DNA of 64,000 nt, taken from NCBI GenBank assembly GCA_026389335.1, contig JAPLIB010000099.1, positions 1 through 64,000 on the forward strand, written 5' to 3'. The translations under genes were made by a program, and so were the position numbers. Positions 45,397 through 54,097 of the stretch are shown here, one piece after another. The DNA comes from Cyanobacteriota bacterium. Lineage in GTDB: Bacteria > Cyanobacteriota > Cyanobacteriia > PCC-6307 > Cyanobiaceae. Below the pieces are notes generated by a model, which was not told the DNA's origin, did not search any database, and saw only the letters and a list, made by a program, of their open reading frames with translations. Each line of letters opens with the position of its first letter. Position 1 is the first letter of the stretch.

Positions 45397-46554
45397 TCAG
45401 GGGCCCCAGCGCTGGGCGCCCAGGAAGGTGAGGTCGACGAAGTCGCTGGCCTGGTGATCGCGCGGGCCCAGGGAGAGCTTGTAGCCGCCCAGATCCAGCT
45501 TGTGCATGCTCTCGAACGCGATCACCAGCGCCTGGCGGCTCGGGTTCGCCCCCGCCCTCTGTAATCCCTCCGTCATCAGGCGGGCCGCCAGGAATCCCTC
45601 CAGGCTGGTGAAGCCATAGCGGGCCGTGCGCTGCTGCCGGCGCATCAGGCGCAGATACTCCGCCACCACCGGCACCTGCCGGTTCCAGGGGAAGGGCACC
45701 ACCTGGCTCACGCCGATGCCGCTGGCCATGCCCCCCGGCAGGGAGTCCTGCAGGCCGCCGGTGCCCACGAAGGAGACGTTCATCAGCTGGGCCGTGCTGC
45801 CGAGGCGGTGCAGGCTGCGGCTGAAGGCTGCGGAACTCGGATAGGCGCTGATGATCACCACGGCGCTGGGATCACGCTGATGCACCTGCTGTGCGGCCCC
45901 GTCGGTGGTGGTGGAGTTGCGTTTCACCCCGGCGATTGCCACCGGCTGCAGGCCGTGGCGGGCCAGGGCGCTGCGGGTGGCGCGCAGGCCATCCTCACCG
46001 AAGGCATCCTCCTGGTGGAGCACGGCTATGCGGTGGCGGCCGGCCCGAACCAGATCGTCGACGATCCGGTCGATTTCCGCCTGGTAGCTGGCCCTCAGGT
46101 TGAACACCATCGGCCGGAACGGTTCCCGCAGCAGGCGTGCGCCGGTGAGCGGCGCCACCAGTGGGATCTGCGCCTGCTCCACCAGCGGCAGGATTGCCTT
46201 CACCGTCGGGGTGCCCACGTAGCCGAACAGGGCGAAGGCCCGCTCCTTCTCGATCAGCCGGCGCGTGTTGCGCAGGGTTAGGGCCGGTTCGTAGCGATCG
46301 TCGAGGCTCACCAGCCGCAGCTTGCGGCCGTGAATGCCGCCGCGCCGGTTCACCTCGTCGAACCAGGCCAGCGCCCCTTCGCGGTAGTCGCGGCCGAGCT
46401 GGGCCGAGGGTCCGCTCAAAGGCGCCGACTGGCCGAGCACGAGTTCGGTGCGGCTCGCGGCTGTCGTCGCCTGCGGGCCTGGGGCGGCCGCCGGGGCTGA
46501 GGCCGGCATCAGCGCGGCGAGCAGTGGGATCAACAGGGGAAGGCCCCCCCGCAC
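45397..46554 (-). CDS. Orphan periplasmic binding protein, branched-chain amino acid (LivJ/Peripla_BP_6) type
   Basis: 385 residues from a GTG at 46554; an in-frame ATG at 46623 adds 23 but would overlap the divergent channel gene. A signal peptide ('LPLLIPLLAALMPASAPAAA') is followed by the two-lobed type I fold: 'LGQSAPLSGPSAQLGRDYR', 'LRLVSLDDRYEPALT', 'FALFGYVGTPTV' and 'IAVLHQEDAFGEDGL'. Such proteins bind amino acids or amides in the periplasm. No ABC permease or ATPase gene is in the window, and the neighbour is a divergent pentameric channel homologue 34 bases away. The binding protein may therefore serve sensing or channel gating rather than transport; this is inference from position. 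Confidence 0.85.
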   Translation of the reverse strand: MRGGLPLLIPLLAALMPASAPAAAPGPQATTAASRTELVLGQSAPLSGPSAQLGRDYREGALAWFDEVNRRGGIHGRKLRLVSLDDRYEPALTLRNTRRLIEKERAFALFGYVGTPTVKAILPLVEQAQIPLVAPLTGARLLREPFRPMVFNLRASYQAEIDRIVDDLVRAGRHRIAVLHQEDAFGEDGLRATRSALARHGLQPVAIAGVKRNSTTTDGAAQQVHQRDPSAVVIISAYPSSAAFSRSLHRLGSTAQLMNVSFVGTGGLQDSLPGGMASGIGVSQVVPFPWNRQVPVVAEYLRLMRRQQRTARYGFTSLEGFLAARLMTEGLQRAGANPSRQALVIAFESMHKLDLGGYKLSLGPRDHQASDFVDLTFLGAQRWGP

Positions 46555-46588
46555 CCTTAACGTCGGGCCGACATTCAGCAACCTGCCG

Positions 46589-47812
46589 GTGCGGAAGCAG
46601 AAGCGCTGGAACCTCGTTGCCATCGGCTCTGTGCTGCTGGCGACGATTCTGGCCATGATGGCCATCGCCCGGATTGATGTCACGCAGGTTCGCAGTCGCG
46701 ACGCCCTGCGCCTGTCGTCCTCGGCCCGCGCCCTGATCATCGACCCGCGCCAGCGCCCCCCCAGCGGCTGGAGCACCCTGCGGGGCGATGTGCTCACCGA
46801 CGGCGAGGCCCACATCGACCAGGACGAGCTGGAACGGGCCACCCATCACGTCCAGGTGGGGGTGTACGCCAACACCGCTTCGGAACTCGATCTCAGTGTT
46901 CCCAGCTATTCCTCCAGCGGTTATGTCTGGCTGACCTGGGATGAGCCTCTGCAGCGCTATCTGCAGGCCAATGGCGCCACGATCGATCAGCGCTTCGGTC
47001 TGCTCAACACCCTGATCACCGATGCGCCGCCCCAGCTGCAGCCGGTGGGGCAGGCACCCGTGAAACTTGCCAATGGCAACTATTACCAGCTGTTCACCTT
47101 TCGGGGCCGCTATTACCTCGATCAGGCCAGCTTTCGTCATTACCCGTTCATGAGTGTCAGCCTGCCCATTGCGATCGAGGTCGACGATGTCGACGGCGGG
47201 CTCACCTACCGGCAGCTGCGGCTTGAGCCCGACATCCGCAACAGCGGAATGGGCCTATATGCGCGCATCATCGGTTGGCTCAACCAGGGCTGGTCGATCG
47301 CCGAATACCGCCACCACTACGCCAGTAACTTCGGCCTGGGTGGGGCGGAGAGCGATTACAGCCTGATCCTGTTCGAGATCTCCTTCGGCACCTCGTCCTG
47401 GGCTTCCTTCTGGCGGCTGCTGCTGCCCCTGGCGGTGCTGATGGCAATGGTGCTGCTGGTGTTCAAGGTGCGCCCCGATGAGCAGGATGCCCGCGCCAGC
47501 ATCCCGGTCACGGTGCTGCTCACCCTGGTGTTCCTGCAGCAGACCTACCGCGACAACCTGCCCGACCTGCCCTTCCTCACCTTCCTGGATCAGGTGTATG
47601 TGGTGGCCTACGTGGTGACGCTGGTGGCCTTCGTGCTGGTGATCTGGATCGGACGCCGTTATGCCGAAATGGAGGCGCTGGAGGAAGGCCCCGTCCGAAC
47701 CAAGCTGCAGCAACGGCTCGAAGACCTCGACAACAGCTGGCCCTTGGTGGTGGTGGCCTTCAGTGGCACGGCCATCGCCATCTCCTGGATGCTGATCCCT
47801 GCCGGGACCTGA
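46589..47812 (+). CDS. Pentameric ligand-gated ion channel homologue, copy 1
   Basis: 407 residues from a GTG at 46589. An N-terminal hydrophobic helix (about 9-26), a linker, then a beta-rich ectodomain: beta1 'VQVGVYANTASELDLS' (88-103), 'YVWLTWDE' (112-119) and the Pro-loop 'FRHYPF' (182-187) without the eukaryotic Cys pair. Four membrane helices follow: M1 (about 272-293), M2 (302-320), M3 (about 330-355), M4 (about 384-404). M2 has Asp300 at -2', Arg302 at 0', Ser304 at 2', Thr308 at 6' and Leu311 at 9', the cation-channel pattern, and 'DNLPDLPFLTF' equals the GLIC M2-M3 loop 'TNLPKTPYMTY'. Identification is by eye against remembered GLIC. High-GC codon use matches the chromosome. Confidence 0.82.
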   Translation: MRKQKRWNLVAIGSVLLATILAMMAIARIDVTQVRSRDALRLSSSARALIIDPRQRPPSGWSTLRGDVLTDGEAHIDQDELERATHHVQVGVYANTASELDLSVPSYSSSGYVWLTWDEPLQRYLQANGATIDQRFGLLNTLITDAPPQLQPVGQAPVKLANGNYYQLFTFRGRYYLDQASFRHYPFMSVSLPIAIEVDDVDGGLTYRQLRLEPDIRNSGMGLYARIIGWLNQGWSIAEYRHHYASNFGLGGAESDYSLILFEISFGTSSWASFWRLLLPLAVLMAMVLLVFKVRPDEQDARASIPVTVLLTLVFLQQTYRDNLPDLPFLTFLDQVYVVAYVVTLVAFVLVIWIGRRYAEMEALEEGPVRTKLQQRLEDLDNSWPLVVVAFSGTAIAISWMLIPAGT

Positions 47813-48520: not shown

Positions 48521-49771
48521 ATGGAATTCCCGGGAATGCATTACGATCCCTGGTCGCCCAATGAACAGCGATATCCCCCTGGAGAAGAACAGGCGCGGTT
48601 GGGCGAGCTTCATGACCGTTTTCTGGAGCGCTCGTCCCATTACATCGGCTTCCCAAATAGCAGAATCCTGGATTTCAGTTCACTGGCGCCTTTTCTGAAA
48701 TTTAATATTAATAATATTGGCGACCCCTACCATCCGAATGATGGCATTAACACCTGCGAATTTGAGCGGGAGCTGCTGGACTTCTTCTCTGAGATTTTTC
48801 ATCTTGATTTGGGCCAGGGCTGGGGTTATCTCACTAACGGTGGTACTGAAGGTAATATGTATGGCATTGTGCGGGGCCGTGATGCTTACCCTGATGCCCG
48901 GCTGATCTTCTCGGAGGAATCTCACTACTGCTTCAAGAAGATTGCCCATCTCTTGCGCATGCCTTACAGCGTTGTTCCTTGTCACGCTGACGGCCGTCTT
49001 GATCTTGAAGCTTTTGCTGCGATCATTGATGCTCTCAAAGGCCAACCCTGTGTGATTAATCTCAACCTGGGAACCACCTTCCATGGGGCGATTGAATCAC
49101 CAACAGAGGTGCTCAACATTCTTGATCGCCACGGCTGCCACGAATATTACCTCCATATTGATGCGGCACTCTATGGTCCGATGTTGCCGTTCATTCCAGG
49201 GGCTCCTGTTTTTGACTTTCGTCTTCCAATCCATAGTCTTTCCTTTTCCGGTCATAAGTTTTTGGGAACGCCAATTCCCTGTGGCATGGTGCTCTGCAGT
49301 CTCAGGCAGCCTTCAGGTTTTGGCGGCAGCGCCGAGTATGTGGGCTCTGTGGACACCACACTTTCGGGATCCAGAGATGGTCTTTCCACCTTGATCTTGT
49401 GGAGTCTGATCAGCCGATTGAAACGGGCTGGCCTGGCCGAATTGGCCCAGGAATCATTGATGTTGGCAGAGGATGCCGTCAGCAGGCTCAAGCAAGCGGG
49501 CCTCGCCAACATTCGCCATGACTATGGCAACATTATTGTATTCCGAAGGCCCGGAGAAGATCTGGCCAGGCGTTGGCAACTGGCCACTCGCGGCGATTTT
49601 GCCCATATCGTGACAGTTCCTGGTGTTACTGGGGAAATGCTGAAAAGATTCGTCTCTGAATTGGTGCAGGACTTCGAAAATGACCAAGATCATCACCTAG
49701 ATTCCCATGGACTCCAAGCTTGTTCCGTATCGCCTTGTCTTATCAAGATCCCTCAAGTCGACCTTGGTTAA
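48521..49771 (+). CDS. PLP-dependent amino acid decarboxylase, histidine decarboxylase family
   Basis: 416 residues from the ATG at 48521. The order of motifs matches bacterial PLP-type histidine decarboxylase: 'FNINNIGDPYHPND' (61-74), 'GYLTNGGTEGNMYGI' (102-116), 'SEESHYCFKKIAHLLRM' with His135 stacking on PLP, 'NLGTTFHGAIE' (182-192), Asp214 in 'LHIDAAL', and Schiff-base Lys246 in 'FSGHKFLGTPIPCG'. The closest enzymes by memory make histamine from histidine; plant serine decarboxylases (ethanolamine) share these motifs, so the substrate is not settled. It begins a same-strand set with a Cache sensor, an MFS transporter and a pentameric channel. Codon use is visibly AT-richer than the surrounding genes. 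Confidence 0.85.
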   Translation: MEFPGMHYDPWSPNEQRYPPGEEQARLGELHDRFLERSSHYIGFPNSRILDFSSLAPFLKFNINNIGDPYHPNDGINTCEFERELLDFFSEIFHLDLGQGWGYLTNGGTEGNMYGIVRGRDAYPDARLIFSEESHYCFKKIAHLLRMPYSVVPCHADGRLDLEAFAAIIDALKGQPCVINLNLGTTFHGAIESPTEVLNILDRHGCHEYYLHIDAALYGPMLPFIPGAPVFDFRLPIHSLSFSGHKFLGTPIPCGMVLCSLRQPSGFGGSAEYVGSVDTTLSGSRDGLSTLILWSLISRLKRAGLAELAQESLMLAEDAVSRLKQAGLANIRHDYGNIIVFRRPGEDLARRWQLATRGDFAHIVTVPGVTGEMLKRFVSELVQDFENDQDHHLDSHGLQACSVSPCLIKIPQVDLG

Positions 49772-49816
49772 GCTAGGTTCATTCAACTCAACCACAAATT
49801 GTCAGGAATTTGCTTG

Positions 49817-51658
49817 ATGGAATTATCGCGTACATGGCTTCGGCGCTTCAAGAGCCCTGCAGCCCAGGGAGTGTTGTTCGCGGTTCTATGGCTCGCTGTT
49901 ACAAATGTAACTATCTACTTCATTTATCTCCGTGCTGTTGATGCGGTCAAGGAGGAAATTCGGGAGGGCTTGCTGCGAAATGTCAATGCCGCAGCAACGA
50001 TCATTGATGGCGACCAGCACAAGCAGTTCAAGTCCAAAGCTTCAAAGACTGACCCTGGCTATATTTATCTGACCCGGAGGCTTGAGACCCTGCGCAAGGC
50101 GTCCAAGGATGTTCGGTATCTCTATACAAATATAATCGATTCTGGGAAAGTTTATTTCGTTGTTAATGGTAGCCCTCAGAACGATAACGACAAGGATGGC
50201 CGCCCTGACGAGGCCCCTCAGCTGATGGATTCTTATCCGGATGCTGGCAAAGCTCTGTTGGAGGCCTTGACAAAACACAAGGCGACGGTTGATCGGGAAC
50301 CCTATACTGATGTGTGGGGTACTTTCTATAGCGCCTATGCCCCATTTTATGACTCTAAGGGCCGTTTTGTCGGAACTCTGGGCATGGATCTGGAGCTGGT
50401 GGCGTTGCAGGCTCGCCTGGTCCCGATCGGGGTTGCTGCTCAACGGGCTGCTTTCACCTCTGGAATCCTGGCGGTGCTGTTTGGTACCAGTGTCTGGTAC
50501 TTTCGCCGTACAAATAAAAGTCTGCTGCAAGGTCGCCGACAGGCTGAATCCGAACTCGGCCTCGTCTCCTCTGGTCGCAGCCAGGATCGCAGGGCTGCCG
50601 CCCTGCAATTGGCTGCCGTTGCCCAAAGGCTGGCCGAGCCAGGCTCCGGGGCCAAGGAGGGCGGAAGCTCAGCAGAAGCCGCCTCCGGATATGGACAGGC
50701 ACTACAGCAATACGCAAAGGCCAGGCTCAGGCAAGCACCCGTTGAGATGGCCAACTTTGAACTTGCATCGGTGCTTCAGGCCGCATTCCAAGATGACTCC
50801 GCCCATCCGATCCAGGTGAAGATCAACCGAAACGTGCCCAAGCTCTTGTGTGGTTCAGCTGATCATCTCCGCGACAACCTGAAGATCTTGGCTACCCATC
50901 CCTTTGCTAAGGCTAATCTGGGCAAGTTGGATGCTGTTGATGTTGATCTTGAACGCGAATCTTTGAACGCTCTGGATCTTCTGATCACACTTGGTTATCA
51001 AGCACAGCAGGATACCCGGGCCCTGAGAATCAACAGTCCCACCGTCAACGAAGGCTCAACTTATGCCGTCTTCACGATCACTGGCATCGAGACCCTGGAT
51101 CTGAGCCTGGAGCTGGGTAATACGGTGGATGCCTCAGATAACGAGGCCACGATTACCGATTTCAGGCTTGAGTACTCCAGCGATGCTGGCAACCACTGGA
51201 CCCTTTATTCCTGGAATGGCAGCACGGGCAACCGACCCACGGTTCCGGCCGTAGGAAGCCTGCTGGTTCGCGTCGATATCTCCAGCGAGCAGGATGATGT
51301 TTTTGAAGAAGCAGAAACGTTCACACTCAAGGCCATCACGGATACGGGCGAGGCTGCCGTTGGCATCGCCACCATCAAGGATGACGGTACTGGCACCATG
51401 TTCAACGCTGACGGTACGGTCAACACCAGCGGCTTGAAGAAAGACGATCGCTCTGCTGATGCCAAGCGACCAGAGCTGGCAGCAATCGTTGAGGAGCCTG
51501 ATCTGGTCGATCATGTCAGTGATGAACAGCGGCTGACTTTCGCCGCAAGCTGCGAGCAGATCCGTGCCATTTCCGGCTCGATCCGATTCGAACATCCTGA
51601 GGATTTAAGGTACCAGTTAGTTGTAACAATTCCGTTCAGTAAGTACATCGAGAGCTGA
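49817..51658 (+). CDS. Cache-domain membrane sensor with degenerate, interrupted kinase-like region
   Basis: 613 residues from ATG 49817. Membrane helix 15-38; extracytoplasmic Cache domain about 40-205 ('KDVRYLYTNIIDSGKVYFVV', 'YTDVWGTFYSAYAPFYDSKG') carrying a loop with N-D-N-D-K-D-G (122-128) that resembles a Ca-binding DxDxDG loop; second helix 212-229. The cytoplasmic part has a HATPase_c-like start ('VPKLLCGSADHLRDNLKIL', 340-358) and end ('ASCEQIRAISGSI' to 'VVTIPFSKY', 577-610), but no phospho-acceptor His box and no good N box. Between them, about 400-555, sits a Calx-beta/adhesin-like beta domain ('VNEGSTYAVFTITG', 'EAETFTLKAITDTG', 'KDDGTGTMF'). Kinase activity is unlikely. Three bases separate it from the MFS gene. 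Confidence 0.75.
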   Translation: MELSRTWLRRFKSPAAQGVLFAVLWLAVTNVTIYFIYLRAVDAVKEEIREGLLRNVNAAATIIDGDQHKQFKSKASKTDPGYIYLTRRLETLRKASKDVRYLYTNIIDSGKVYFVVNGSPQNDNDKDGRPDEAPQLMDSYPDAGKALLEALTKHKATVDREPYTDVWGTFYSAYAPFYDSKGRFVGTLGMDLELVALQARLVPIGVAAQRAAFTSGILAVLFGTSVWYFRRTNKSLLQGRRQAESELGLVSSGRSQDRRAAALQLAAVAQRLAEPGSGAKEGGSSAEAASGYGQALQQYAKARLRQAPVEMANFELASVLQAAFQDDSAHPIQVKINRNVPKLLCGSADHLRDNLKILATHPFAKANLGKLDAVDVDLERESLNALDLLITLGYQAQQDTRALRINSPTVNEGSTYAVFTITGIETLDLSLELGNTVDASDNEATITDFRLEYSSDAGNHWTLYSWNGSTGNRPTVPAVGSLLVRVDISSEQDDVFEEAETFTLKAITDTGEAAVGIATIKDDGTGTMFNADGTVNTSGLKKDDRSADAKRPELAAIVEEPDLVDHVSDEQRLTFAASCEQIRAISGSIRFEHPEDLRYQLVVTIPFSKYIES

Positions 51659-51661
51659 TTC

Positions 51662-52822
51662 ATGAATCTTGCTAAAGCACAATCTCAGCGCTGGGTTCCT
51701 TTTGTGGTGATCGGCCTGATTATGGCCACTGCGGCTGTCCAGGCAGCTGTAGGTTTCAATACCGTATTGTTTCCTGTTCGGCTTGAGGATTATGGATTCA
51801 GTAAAAGTTTGATCGGTATTTGCCTCTCATTTGAGGTGGCGTCTGTCCTGGTCATTGTTGGCTCTATCAATGGCATCATCTCCCGACTTGGGTTGGTAGG
51901 CACCGTGGCGCTGGCCACTGGTGGGCGGCTGTTGATGTTGTTGATCCTGTCGCAGACCCGTAGTTTTCCGCTGTGGTGTTTCAGTATATTTGGGTTTGGA
52001 TTAACGACCTATCTGATCCTCATCGCCTTGCAGACCTGGATCAATGGTGTGCCGCTGCAGCGCTACCGGGGCCTGGTGATCGGTTGCTTCAGTTCAGCTC
52101 TATCCTTGGGCACAGCCAGTGGCCCCATTGTTCTCAATATGGTTGGTGTTGGTGGCGGTGCCAGGCCCTTTCAGGCCAGCATGGGTATCGTTGCTCTCAG
52201 CTTTCTGGTGGTGCTGCCGTTGCTTCGGTTTGCGCCTGTGATCAGCACGCAACCGCGCCTCAGGATTCGCTATGTGATCCGCATGGCCACGGTGCCGATG
52301 ATGTCGTCCTTGGTGGGAGGCGTAACCTTTTTCGGCTTGCCCGCCTTCCTGACGTTGTACGGGATGATGAATGGGCTGTCCGTGGATCGTGCAGCCCTGC
52401 TGCTCACGGCTTTTATGGTTGGTTCCGTCACCCTCGGGCTGCTGGTTTCCACTCTTTCTGACCACATGAACCGCACGCTGTTGATTGTGTCCTGTGTGCT
52501 GGTGGGAGTGGTTTGTGCGGTCTATCTACCCCTGGCTATTTATAACTATCCTGTTGCCTTGGGTCTTTTGTTCGTCTGGGGCGGAGCTGCTGGCGGTATT
52601 TATGCCACCGGGCTGGCCACGGTAGGTCATCTTTTTCGTCAGGAAGATCAGGTTTCTGCCAACGTAGCTTACTCGATTATGGATAATCTTGGTGGTGTCG
52701 TCGCTGTGATTTCGATTGGCTTTCTGATGGGTGCTGGTATCGCCGATGGCATTGTTTATGTTACCGTGTTGACAGCACTTACTTATTTTATCTATTGCTT
52801 GTCCCGGCTTCGTGCTGAGTAG
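51662..52822 (+). CDS. Major facilitator superfamily transporter
   Basis: 386 residues with about twelve hydrophobic helices in two halves of six. The loop between helices 2 and 3 and the long middle region fit a YcaD-like MFS layout, and 'LSDHMNRTLLIV' in the second half resembles the MFS G-X3-D-R motif. The substrate cannot be told from sequence; the setting beside an amino acid decarboxylase suggests amine or amino acid export or exchange. It lies three bases after the sensor stop and 39 before the channel gene, so an operon is very likely. Confidence 0.85.
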   Translation: MNLAKAQSQRWVPFVVIGLIMATAAVQAAVGFNTVLFPVRLEDYGFSKSLIGICLSFEVASVLVIVGSINGIISRLGLVGTVALATGGRLLMLLILSQTRSFPLWCFSIFGFGLTTYLILIALQTWINGVPLQRYRGLVIGCFSSALSLGTASGPIVLNMVGVGGGARPFQASMGIVALSFLVVLPLLRFAPVISTQPRLRIRYVIRMATVPMMSSLVGGVTFFGLPAFLTLYGMMNGLSVDRAALLLTAFMVGSVTLGLLVSTLSDHMNRTLLIVSCVLVGVVCAVYLPLAIYNYPVALGLLFVWGGAAGGIYATGLATVGHLFRQEDQVSANVAYSIMDNLGGVVAVISIGFLMGAGIADGIVYVTVLTALTYFIYCLSRLRAE

Positions 52823-52861
52823 GCGACGTATTGGTTCCATCCCCGCCGCTTCTCTTCTGCC

Positions 52862-54097
52862 ATGACCCAGCCAGGCGCTGACCGCAAACGTCTACGGCGG
52901 TCTTATCAGAAACCCTGGAACAGTGCCGCCTTGATCCTGGCTCTGTTGTCGATTCTTTTGCTGACTCTGGCCGTTTTTTCGGTTGACAATCGCGCCAAGG
53001 GAACGGGGGATTACCTGGAGCTCACATCTTCATCACCTTTGTCTCGCCAAACCCAGGGCGACTTGTTGAATCGTGGCAGGCTGCCGAAGAGGGAAGCACT
53101 GGAGCTAGATCGTCAACAGTTAAAGGATACGCAAATGAAGGTGTCTGTCGGCATCTATGCTATGAATAATTATGGTATTGATCCTCAGGTGCCCTCTTTT
53201 GACAGTACGGGGTATATGTGGTTCAAGTGGGGGGATGAACTGCAGCAGTATCTGGTAAAAACAGGCCTGGATATCTGGAAAGTGATGGCCCCTGTCAACT
53301 TGCTTGATATCCCCCAGTCCGCTGACACGGTGATGGTGCCTACCGGCACAGATAAGCCCATCAAAATGAAAGATGGAACCTGGTACCAAACCGTTGCTTA
53401 TAAGGGTAAATTCTTTATTGATCGCAAGGACTTTCGCCGGCATCCTTTTACGAGGCTAAGTCTGCCGATCATGATTGAGGCCGATGATATTTTGCTGAGC
53501 TACGGTAATCTGCGCATCGTTCCCGATCTGCAGGGAAGTGGTATTGGCCAGTATATTGATACCAATACTGGCTGGATCAACCTTGGATGGTCGATGGCCG
53601 AATACAAGCATCATTATGATACCGACTTTGGTTTTGGCGAGGGAGCGTCCGATTATAGTCAATTGGTCTTCGATGTTAGATATGCATCTGATCCCTGGTC
53701 GGCATTCTGGAAGATCTTGATCCCTCTGGCTACGGTGATGGCCATGGTGGTGGGTGCCACGAAAATGGATCCTGTCCAGTGGGAGGTGAGGTTGACCATG
53801 CCGGTCACCGTGCTGCTGACCCTGGTGTTCTTGCAGCAGTCCCAGGATTCGGGGATTCCCAAGCTTCCCTACCTGACATTCCTGGATGAGGTCTATGTTG
53901 TTTCCTATACGATTACACTTGGTTCGTTCCTGCTGATGTTGTGGGGTTGCAGGCGTTATTACAGCGCTTTGGCGCTTGAGGATCCCATATTGCAGCAACG
54001 GGAGCTCGCCCGTCTGGACCGTTCCGATGACTATTGGCCAGCTGCTGTGATCTTGGCTGGCATGATTTCTGTCACGATCTGCTGGTTTACGAATTAG
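52862..54097 (+). CDS. Pentameric ligand-gated ion channel homologue, copy 2
   Basis: 411 residues from the ATG at 52862. Basic N-terminus and anchor helix (21-41), ectodomain with beta1 'VSVGIYAMNNYGID' (94-107), 'YMWFKWGDE' and the Pro-loop 'FRRHPF' (191-196), then M1 (about 282-300), M2 (310-327), M3 (about 340-362) and M4 (about 391-410). M2 keeps Glu308 at -2', Arg310 at 0', Thr312 at 2', Thr316 at 6' and Leu319 at 9', followed by 'GIPKLPYLTF'. It is a clear paralogue of the channel at 46.6 kb, most alike in M1-M3. Adjacent aromatic residues in 'GWINLGWSMAEY' (237-248) might contribute to a ligand pocket. AT-richer codon use groups it with the decarboxylase set. Confidence 0.85.
   Translation: MTQPGADRKRLRRSYQKPWNSAALILALLSILLLTLAVFSVDNRAKGTGDYLELTSSSPLSRQTQGDLLNRGRLPKREALELDRQQLKDTQMKVSVGIYAMNNYGIDPQVPSFDSTGYMWFKWGDELQQYLVKTGLDIWKVMAPVNLLDIPQSADTVMVPTGTDKPIKMKDGTWYQTVAYKGKFFIDRKDFRRHPFTRLSLPIMIEADDILLSYGNLRIVPDLQGSGIGQYIDTNTGWINLGWSMAEYKHHYDTDFGFGEGASDYSQLVFDVRYASDPWSAFWKILIPLATVMAMVVGATKMDPVQWEVRLTMPVTVLLTLVFLQQSQDSGIPKLPYLTFLDEVYVVSYTITLGSFLLMLWGCRRYYSALALEDPILQQRELARLDRSDDYWPAAVILAGMISVTICWFTN

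Follow-up and report, generated by a model that had tools for sequence, protein, structure and literature searches.

The stretch of DNA studied here, hereafter the window, comprises 64,000 nucleotides of contig JAPLIB010000099.1 in the assembly GCA_026389335.1 of a Cyanobacteriota bacterium of the family Cyanobiaceae (171 contigs; genome G000 in this work). Between positions 48521 and 54097 it carries four adjacent open reading frames (ORFs), all intact and on the same strand, that code for a pyridoxal phosphate (PLP) decarboxylase (DEC), a membrane sensor (SENS), a major facilitator transporter (MFS) and a homologue of the pentameric ligand-gated ion channels (pLGICs), here called CH2. A preliminary description of this DNA, made from the letters alone, had given the same family labels and regarded the genes as an operon-like set with intergenic gaps of 45, 3 and 39 bases; the gaps were recomputed with the same values, profile and structure matches agree with the labels, for Cache below the threshold, and the operon-like set is supported. 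The features of the cassette are the following:

48521–49771, + strand: DEC, group II PLP decarboxylase of the histidine/serine decarboxylase superfamily, in a clade of its own
49817–51658, + strand: SENS, with an N-terminal transmembrane segment, a periplasmic Cache/PDC-like domain, a second transmembrane segment and a degenerate histidine-kinase module
49931–50431, + strand: Cache/PDC-like periplasmic domain of SENS, approximately residues 39–205
50507–51004, + strand: first part of the degenerate kinase module of SENS, approximately residues 231–396, without an H-box, G1 or G2 ATP-site pattern
51005–51475, + strand: inserted domain of SENS, residues 397–553
51476–51655, + strand: remainder of the degenerate kinase module, after the insert
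51662–52822, + strand: MFS, major facilitator transporter
52862–54097, + strand: CH2, pLGIC homologue with an extra N-terminal hydrophobic helix
53783–53839, + strand: pore-lining stretch of CH2, residues 308–326, with E308 (-2'), T312 (2'), T316 (6'), L319 (9') and F323 (13')

The transmembrane segments of SENS were assigned by reading the sequence. A possible alternative start of DEC is Met6 (position 48536), where the ORFs of three of the six aligned relatives begin. Scans of the locus for promoters and terminators gave only chance-level signal.

Conservation of the four-gene cassette

The main search set consisted of 299 genomes of the order, in which MFS and channel matches were counted at E 1e-10. 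MFS matches occur in seven of these genomes, and the same seven have DEC matches of at least 54% identity and SENS matches of at least 53%; CH2-type matches of at least 57% were found in those seven genomes and in G185. A further 22 genomes gave weak DEC matches only, and the 28 other genomes that matched SENS did so through its N-terminal part or its inserted domain. In the seven genomes the four genes are adjacent and in a single order, the set of G298 being split by contig ends inside MFS. A scan of named genomes with two peptide patterns, which more distant copies may escape, detected eight loci with DEC relatives of at least 54% identity; seven are cyanobacterial, i.e., five already counted (G113, G136, G143, G156 and G298) and two new (L139 and L140), and the eighth belongs to a Lentisphaerae metagenome-assembled genome (L144). 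The total is nine cyanobacterial copies and one Lentisphaerae relative. The cyanobacterial hosts include the cultured Vulcanococcus limneticus LL and Synechococcus sp. GreenBA-s; the V. limneticus enzyme is that of G143. The co-occurrence in relatives that had been proposed as a check of the preliminary description was thus found, with one gene order in the nine cyanobacterial copies and the channel directly after MFS in every one of them.

The surroundings of the cassette are variable. Flanks of 1 to 8 kb per side (in G298, a single side from each of its two contigs) were compared at a threshold of E 1e-10 using the called ORFs, and rechecked using all ORFs of at least 80 amino acids. Flanking ORFs match within the group formed by the window, L139, L140 and G113, and within the pair G143 and G136; the flanks of G030, G156, G298 and L144 have no match to any other copy. 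The ten copies therefore lie in six flanking contexts without shared ORF matches, five of them cyanobacterial. The ratios of nonsynonymous to synonymous substitution (dN/dS, NG86) of the four genes in four pairs of copies range from 0.055 to 0.184, and are rough in those pairs where dS is above 1; for CH2 the range is 0.055–0.105. Judged from these ratios, the cassette genes are under purifying selection. In unrooted trees of DEC, SENS and MFS the major split agrees, while minor groupings differ and some supports are low; the Lentisphaerae copy is placed on the branch separating the two cyanobacterial groups.

In the Lentisphaerae genome the genes for DEC, SENS and MFS (60, 46 and 63% identity, respectively) are followed by one for a protein of 518 residues that replaces the channel, a replacement absent from the preliminary description. 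The N-terminal part of this protein is 49% identical to SENS over residues 14–252, and its C-terminal part is a SpoIIE phosphatase domain (PF07228, E 1.8e-37). The channel profile, used at E 0.001, detected no pLGIC in this genome of 10.6 Mb. A gene located 1.3 kb beyond the set is 68% identical to one from another genome of the same class, which fits a truly Lentisphaerae contig, though it is no proof against misbinning. On the basis of this one genome, the fourth slot looks like an exchangeable position for a second receptor. DEC matches at E 1e-20 were found in 15 of the 197 genomes of this class, including the genome itself, and the neighbourhoods of seven of the other 14 showed no SENS, MFS or channel match.

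The conserved order, the co-occurrence, the changing flanks, the purifying selection and the receptor swap in Lentisphaerae together support the view that the cassette is one functional unit. Chance adjacency of the four genes was rejected, given their co-occurrence and the varying flanks, and carriage by plasmids or viruses was rejected from scans of a plasmid collection and of viral contigs. In the plasmid collection CH2 had no match, and DEC matched 145 records, all below 60% identity (34.7–37.0% among the ten listed); the DEC pattern scan of the viral contigs found none. Across 292 sampled genomes from the phylum, DEC matched seven at E 1e-30, i.e., G000, G030 and five with a distant enzyme of approximately 37–38% identity, whose loci were examined with flanks of 1.5 kb.

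The decarboxylase, the sensor and the channel

DEC matches PF00282 (E 8.2e-18, above the cut-off), and its catalytic Lys246, Asp214 and loop Tyr273 are invariant in an alignment of seven enzymes and in the ten cassette enzymes; this combination is that of a group II PLP amino acid decarboxylase. The protein also passes NF002748, the equivalog model of histidine decarboxylase, with a score of 369.8 (cut-off 305), but in the controls the Arabidopsis serine decarboxylase scored 462.9 and a bacterial histidine decarboxylase 577.6; since the serine decarboxylase outscores DEC, a pass on this model cannot tell one activity from the other. Among solved structures, the nearest chains are 8jij/8jik (E 2.5e-84) and 8jg7 (E 6.6e-81), filed as serine decarboxylase and followed by the bacterial histidine decarboxylase (7eru/7erv), presumably that of Photobacterium phosphoreum. 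We took 8jij/8jik as the alanine decarboxylase of tea, with Phe at the specificity position, and 8jg7 as the Arabidopsis enzyme AtSerDC, with Tyr. According to the part of PMC11407765 used here, substrate choice is governed by one position, Tyr111 in AtSerDC and Phe106 in the tea enzyme, at which plant enzymes themselves vary. In the ten cassette enzymes this residue is Asn (N46 of DEC, in the motif FPNSR). DEC thus has the catalytic loop Tyr of the plant enzymes, its closest solved relatives, but neither their Tyr nor their Phe at the specificity position; and it shares NF002748 with the bacterial histidine decarboxylase, which has Glu at position 46. A tree of 26 enzymes unites the ten cassette decarboxylases in a clade with support of 100/99 and a long stem, separate from both reference groups and hence from 7erv, the one histidine decarboxylase reference of the tree, in which long branches leave the deeper order unsure.

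The preliminary description had named histamine as a possible product. This proposal is not supported, given the higher score of the serine decarboxylase control on the same model, the separate clade and an N46 that matches none of the three kinds of reference enzyme; on these comparisons "histidine decarboxylase" is for DEC a family label and not a substrate assignment. As a separate observation, four of the five distant cyanobacterial decarboxylases (L169–L172, family f7) have Tyr at the specificity position (YPY), a hint that they may be serine decarboxylases; against this, these four lack the SGHK His in the alignment.

For the second gene the preliminary description had proposed a Cache-domain membrane sensor. 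The membrane sensor with a divergent Cache-like domain stands, with the reservations that the Cache match is sub-threshold and that the kinase part is degenerate. The periplasmic part of SENS aligns with that of 18 longer proteins of the order, and the five of these scanned with Pfam all have HisKA, HATPase_c and a receiver domain; in one of the five (L078) PF22673 gave E 3.7e-4, below the cut-off. A profile of 21 sequences of this domain, i.e., 15 of the 18 related proteins and six cassette copies, was run against the PDB up to E 10 and returned 19 rows: 13 chains of chemoreceptors or CitA/DcuS-type sensors (best E 0.062), four phototropin chains, one hybrid kinase and one Mg transporter. With approximately 165 residues the SENS domain looks like a single Cache; the amine motif dCache_1AM belongs to the double Cache domain (PMC10104139, in the part used here).

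The 18 related full-length Cache-type kinases all carry the H-box, G1 and G2. By pattern search, none of the ten cassette sensors has an H-box or G2, and four have a G1-like pattern, inside the insert only; SENS is, from these motifs, a degenerate histidine kinase that lacks both the phospho-acceptor and the ATP motifs. The predicted model of SENS has a mean predicted local distance difference test (pLDDT) score of 58.3, with most of the Cache-like part below 50, and only its kinase-like part was used; this part resembles kinase cores (Foldseek, GacS E 2e-7), in matches with a high root-mean-square deviation (rmsd). The insert of 157 residues interrupts the degenerate ATP-site domain between its two halves in four of the ten sensors (window, L139, L140 and G113), and is restricted to one of the two cassette lineages. 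Its relatives are stretches of long ORFs (722–2882 residues) from five other genomes of the order, with identities up to 49%; Pfam gave no significant match for the insert, and a search of its own genome at E 0.01 found no further copy. Comparison of two pairs showed the Cache-like part to be the slowest-evolving region of SENS (dN 0.05–0.06) and the insert the fastest (dN 0.15–0.29).

The transporter is identified by its match to MFS_1 (Pfam, E 2.2e-26); a PDB sequence search up to E 10 gave no match.

CH2 has no Pfam match, and the NCBIfam channel models match it below their cut-offs. The closest solved sequence is ELIC (E 1.5e-10, residues 92–380). ELIC is also the best Foldseek match of the predicted model, which has a mean pLDDT of 75.9 (E 1e-16; approximately 18% identity over the aligned fold), and GLIC and sTeLIC are among the closest folds, with a best Z of 21.3 by VIA for GLIC (rmsd 3.2, 284 residues). 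As modelled, CH2 is a clear pLGIC by fold, with a beta-sandwich ligand-binding domain and a four-helix membrane domain. In these channels the beta6-beta7 loop (Pro-loop) typically carries a conserved Pro at its tip (PMC4795631, in the part used here); in CH2 this residue is P195, invariant in the 18 aligned channels.

The ligand pocket was mapped with the ELIC residues given in PMC3119659, where, in the part used here, the amine is held by two carboxylates, Glu77 and Glu131. Glu131 corresponds to E206 of CH2 and is Glu in all 18 aligned channels, and the aromatic residues Phe19, Tyr38, Tyr174 and Phe187 of the Erwinia/Dickeya chrysanthemi channel correspond to Y99, Y118, Y252 and Y265. In the seven cassette channels aligned, Y118, Y252 and Y/F265 are kept, the last being Phe in two of them. 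In contrast, Asn103 of ELIC is replaced by Thr (T177) in these seven channels, Glu77 and Phe133 are not clearly kept, and the N-terminal hydrophobic helix of CH2 is an addition. In the pore, position -2' is acidic in six of these seven channels, G156 having Asn there, 2' and 6' are polar and 9' is Leu; from these residues CH2 is predicted to be cation-selective. Gating by the operon's own amine is plausible. The nine cassette channels share 165 invariant positions; the solitary channel of G185 departs from them at 24, including T177 and D253 near the ligand pocket, which is weak evidence, coming from one comparison channel.

Function of the cassette

We consider it possible, at somewhat less than an even chance, that the cassette is a self-contained operon for amine metabolism and sensing. 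DEC would convert an amino acid into an amine and CO2, and MFS would export the amine or exchange it for the amino acid. SENS and CH2 would act as two periplasm-facing receptors of the same small molecule; the SENS pseudokinase would signal by contact and not by phosphorylation, and CH2 would open a cation pore, so that the ligand would be converted into ion flux. The Cache-SpoIIE phosphatase would take the place of the second receptor in the Lentisphaerae copy. We regard this proposal as the best single account of the cassette, with explanations based on uptake and on pH beside it. Several observations weigh against it. Few genomes of the order carry the cassette (7 of 299), and the orthologous channel of G185 (approximately 60%) is present without the other three genes. 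The Cache label of SENS lies below the threshold (PF22673, E 0.068 in Pfam), as does that of the G136 copy (dCache_1, E 0.14, under the Pfam cut-off). The sequence of MFS offers no hint of its substrate. In the cassette channels Glu77 of ELIC aligns to non-acidic residues and Phe133 is without a clear counterpart, in loops A and B where the alignment is uncertain; and the Glu and aromatic pocket positions also occur in channels of the type encoded upstream (CH1, see below) that have no adjoining decarboxylase, so that an amine ligand is not singled out.

Scavenging is an unlikely alternative: MFS would import an amino acid or a related amine, the Cache-like domain and the channel would detect this substrate, and DEC would catalyse the first catabolic step, the amine being no signal. 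Transport by MFS could run inward, and the CH2 pocket, with one Glu and several aromatics, is compatible with a wide range of cationic and zwitterionic molecules. Amino acids are common ligands of Cache domains, a preference that suits scavenging and is documented for dCache domains in the part of PMC10104139 used here. On the other hand, the conserved set has no enzyme acting on the amine product and, in our judgement, an ion channel would be unusual for nutrient uptake. Less probable still is a role in pH homeostasis, in which decarboxylation would use up a proton, the transporter would swap product and substrate, and the channel would be gated by pH in the manner of GLIC (protons) or sTeLIC (alkaline pH), as described in the titles of their database records; the place of both among the closest folds to CH2 speaks for it. 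Acid-resistance systems likewise pair PLP decarboxylases with exchangers. However, the known exchangers are of the APC type and the transporter here is MFS, and the Cache-like pseudokinase together with the Cache-SpoIIE phosphatase of Lentisphaerae points to ligand sensing.

It is improbable that DEC, SENS and MFS are the functional unit, with a downstream channel that is carried along as a passenger or senses a solute independently of them. The channel is the sole part missing from the Lentisphaerae copy, and its orthologue in G185 occurs without the other three genes; nevertheless, it follows MFS in all nine cyanobacterial copies across five flanking contexts, and its low dN/dS in the four pairs compared also argues against a passenger. 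The differences of the G185 channel at positions invariant in the cassette point the same way, weakly.

A bolder reading, which we think doubtful, sees the operon as a bacterial counterpart of the amine synapse: an amine that the cell produces with its group II PLP decarboxylase would be exported by MFS and read back by the pseudokinase and by a pentameric channel of the neurotransmitter-receptor family, in autocrine or population signalling. The receptor slot would be modular, occupied by the channel in cyanobacteria and by the Cache-phosphatase in Lentisphaerae. Vesicular monoamine transporters also belong to the MFS superfamily.

Among known systems, operons for a decarboxylase and an exchanger also place the enzyme beside the transporter; they differ in that theirs is an APC-superfamily antiporter and the one found here is MFS_1. 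Tasneem et al. 2004 reported, in the part of PMC549065 used here, that pLGIC genes adjoin genes of periplasmic-binding-protein (PBP) type PBP-II and, in Rhodopseudomonas, a Cache gene, and proposed joint small-molecule sensing, to which this cassette bears a likeness. Compared with those systems, the cassette adds an enzyme and a transporter to the conserved set, and its Cache-like protein has a degenerate kinase; the terms "decarboxylase" and "amine" are absent from the main text of that paper. A term search of the main texts of the Vulcanococcus genome paper and of two picocyanobacterial papers found neither "ligand-gated" nor "decarboxylase". In agreement with the preliminary description, which knew of no such cyanobacterial system, no paper on such a set was found in the open literature searched, most subscription journals lying outside it; the cassette is a conserved operon type built from known families and, as far as searched, undescribed.

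To our knowledge, few prokaryotic pLGICs have an identified natural ligand. The agonists of ELIC, among them cysteamine, propylamine, ethylamine and aminopropanol, came from a compound-library screen (PMC3119659, in the part used here). A conserved operon in which such a channel accompanies an enzyme whose product can be defined narrows the candidate ligands to a few that can be tested, and may show what natural pLGIC ligands are. If the proposal of an amine signal is true, the receptor superfamily of nerve signalling would be tied to bacterial amine chemistry; the channel-for-phosphatase swap suggests a modular receptor slot.

The upstream channel module and other channel genes

Directly upstream of the cassette lies a second pair of genes, absent from the preliminary description:

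45397–46842, - strand, and 46595–47812, + strand: a second pLGIC (CH1) and, divergent from it, a Peripla_BP_6 binding-protein gene

At E 1e-10 the own genome has three channel matches, i.e., CH2, CH1 and one on contig 71; the PF02931 profile matched neither this genome nor the controls and was uninformative. Among 29 CH1-type loci a clear PBP gene adjoins the channel in 25 (convergent in one, divergent in the rest), one has a weak match and three have none. From this distribution, CH1 and its binding protein are a common pLGIC-PBP module of these picocyanobacteria, separate from the cassette. In the uncultured cyanobacterium of L140/L182 the cassette is followed downstream by the PBP gene of this module and by a partial channel match, whereas in the window the module is upstream; the two channel modules are therefore neighbours in different arrangements. 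Other channel-like matches fall within open frames of 801–897 residues in five genomes (G104, G107, G128, G165 and G279), where the pLGIC domains may be fused to other domains.

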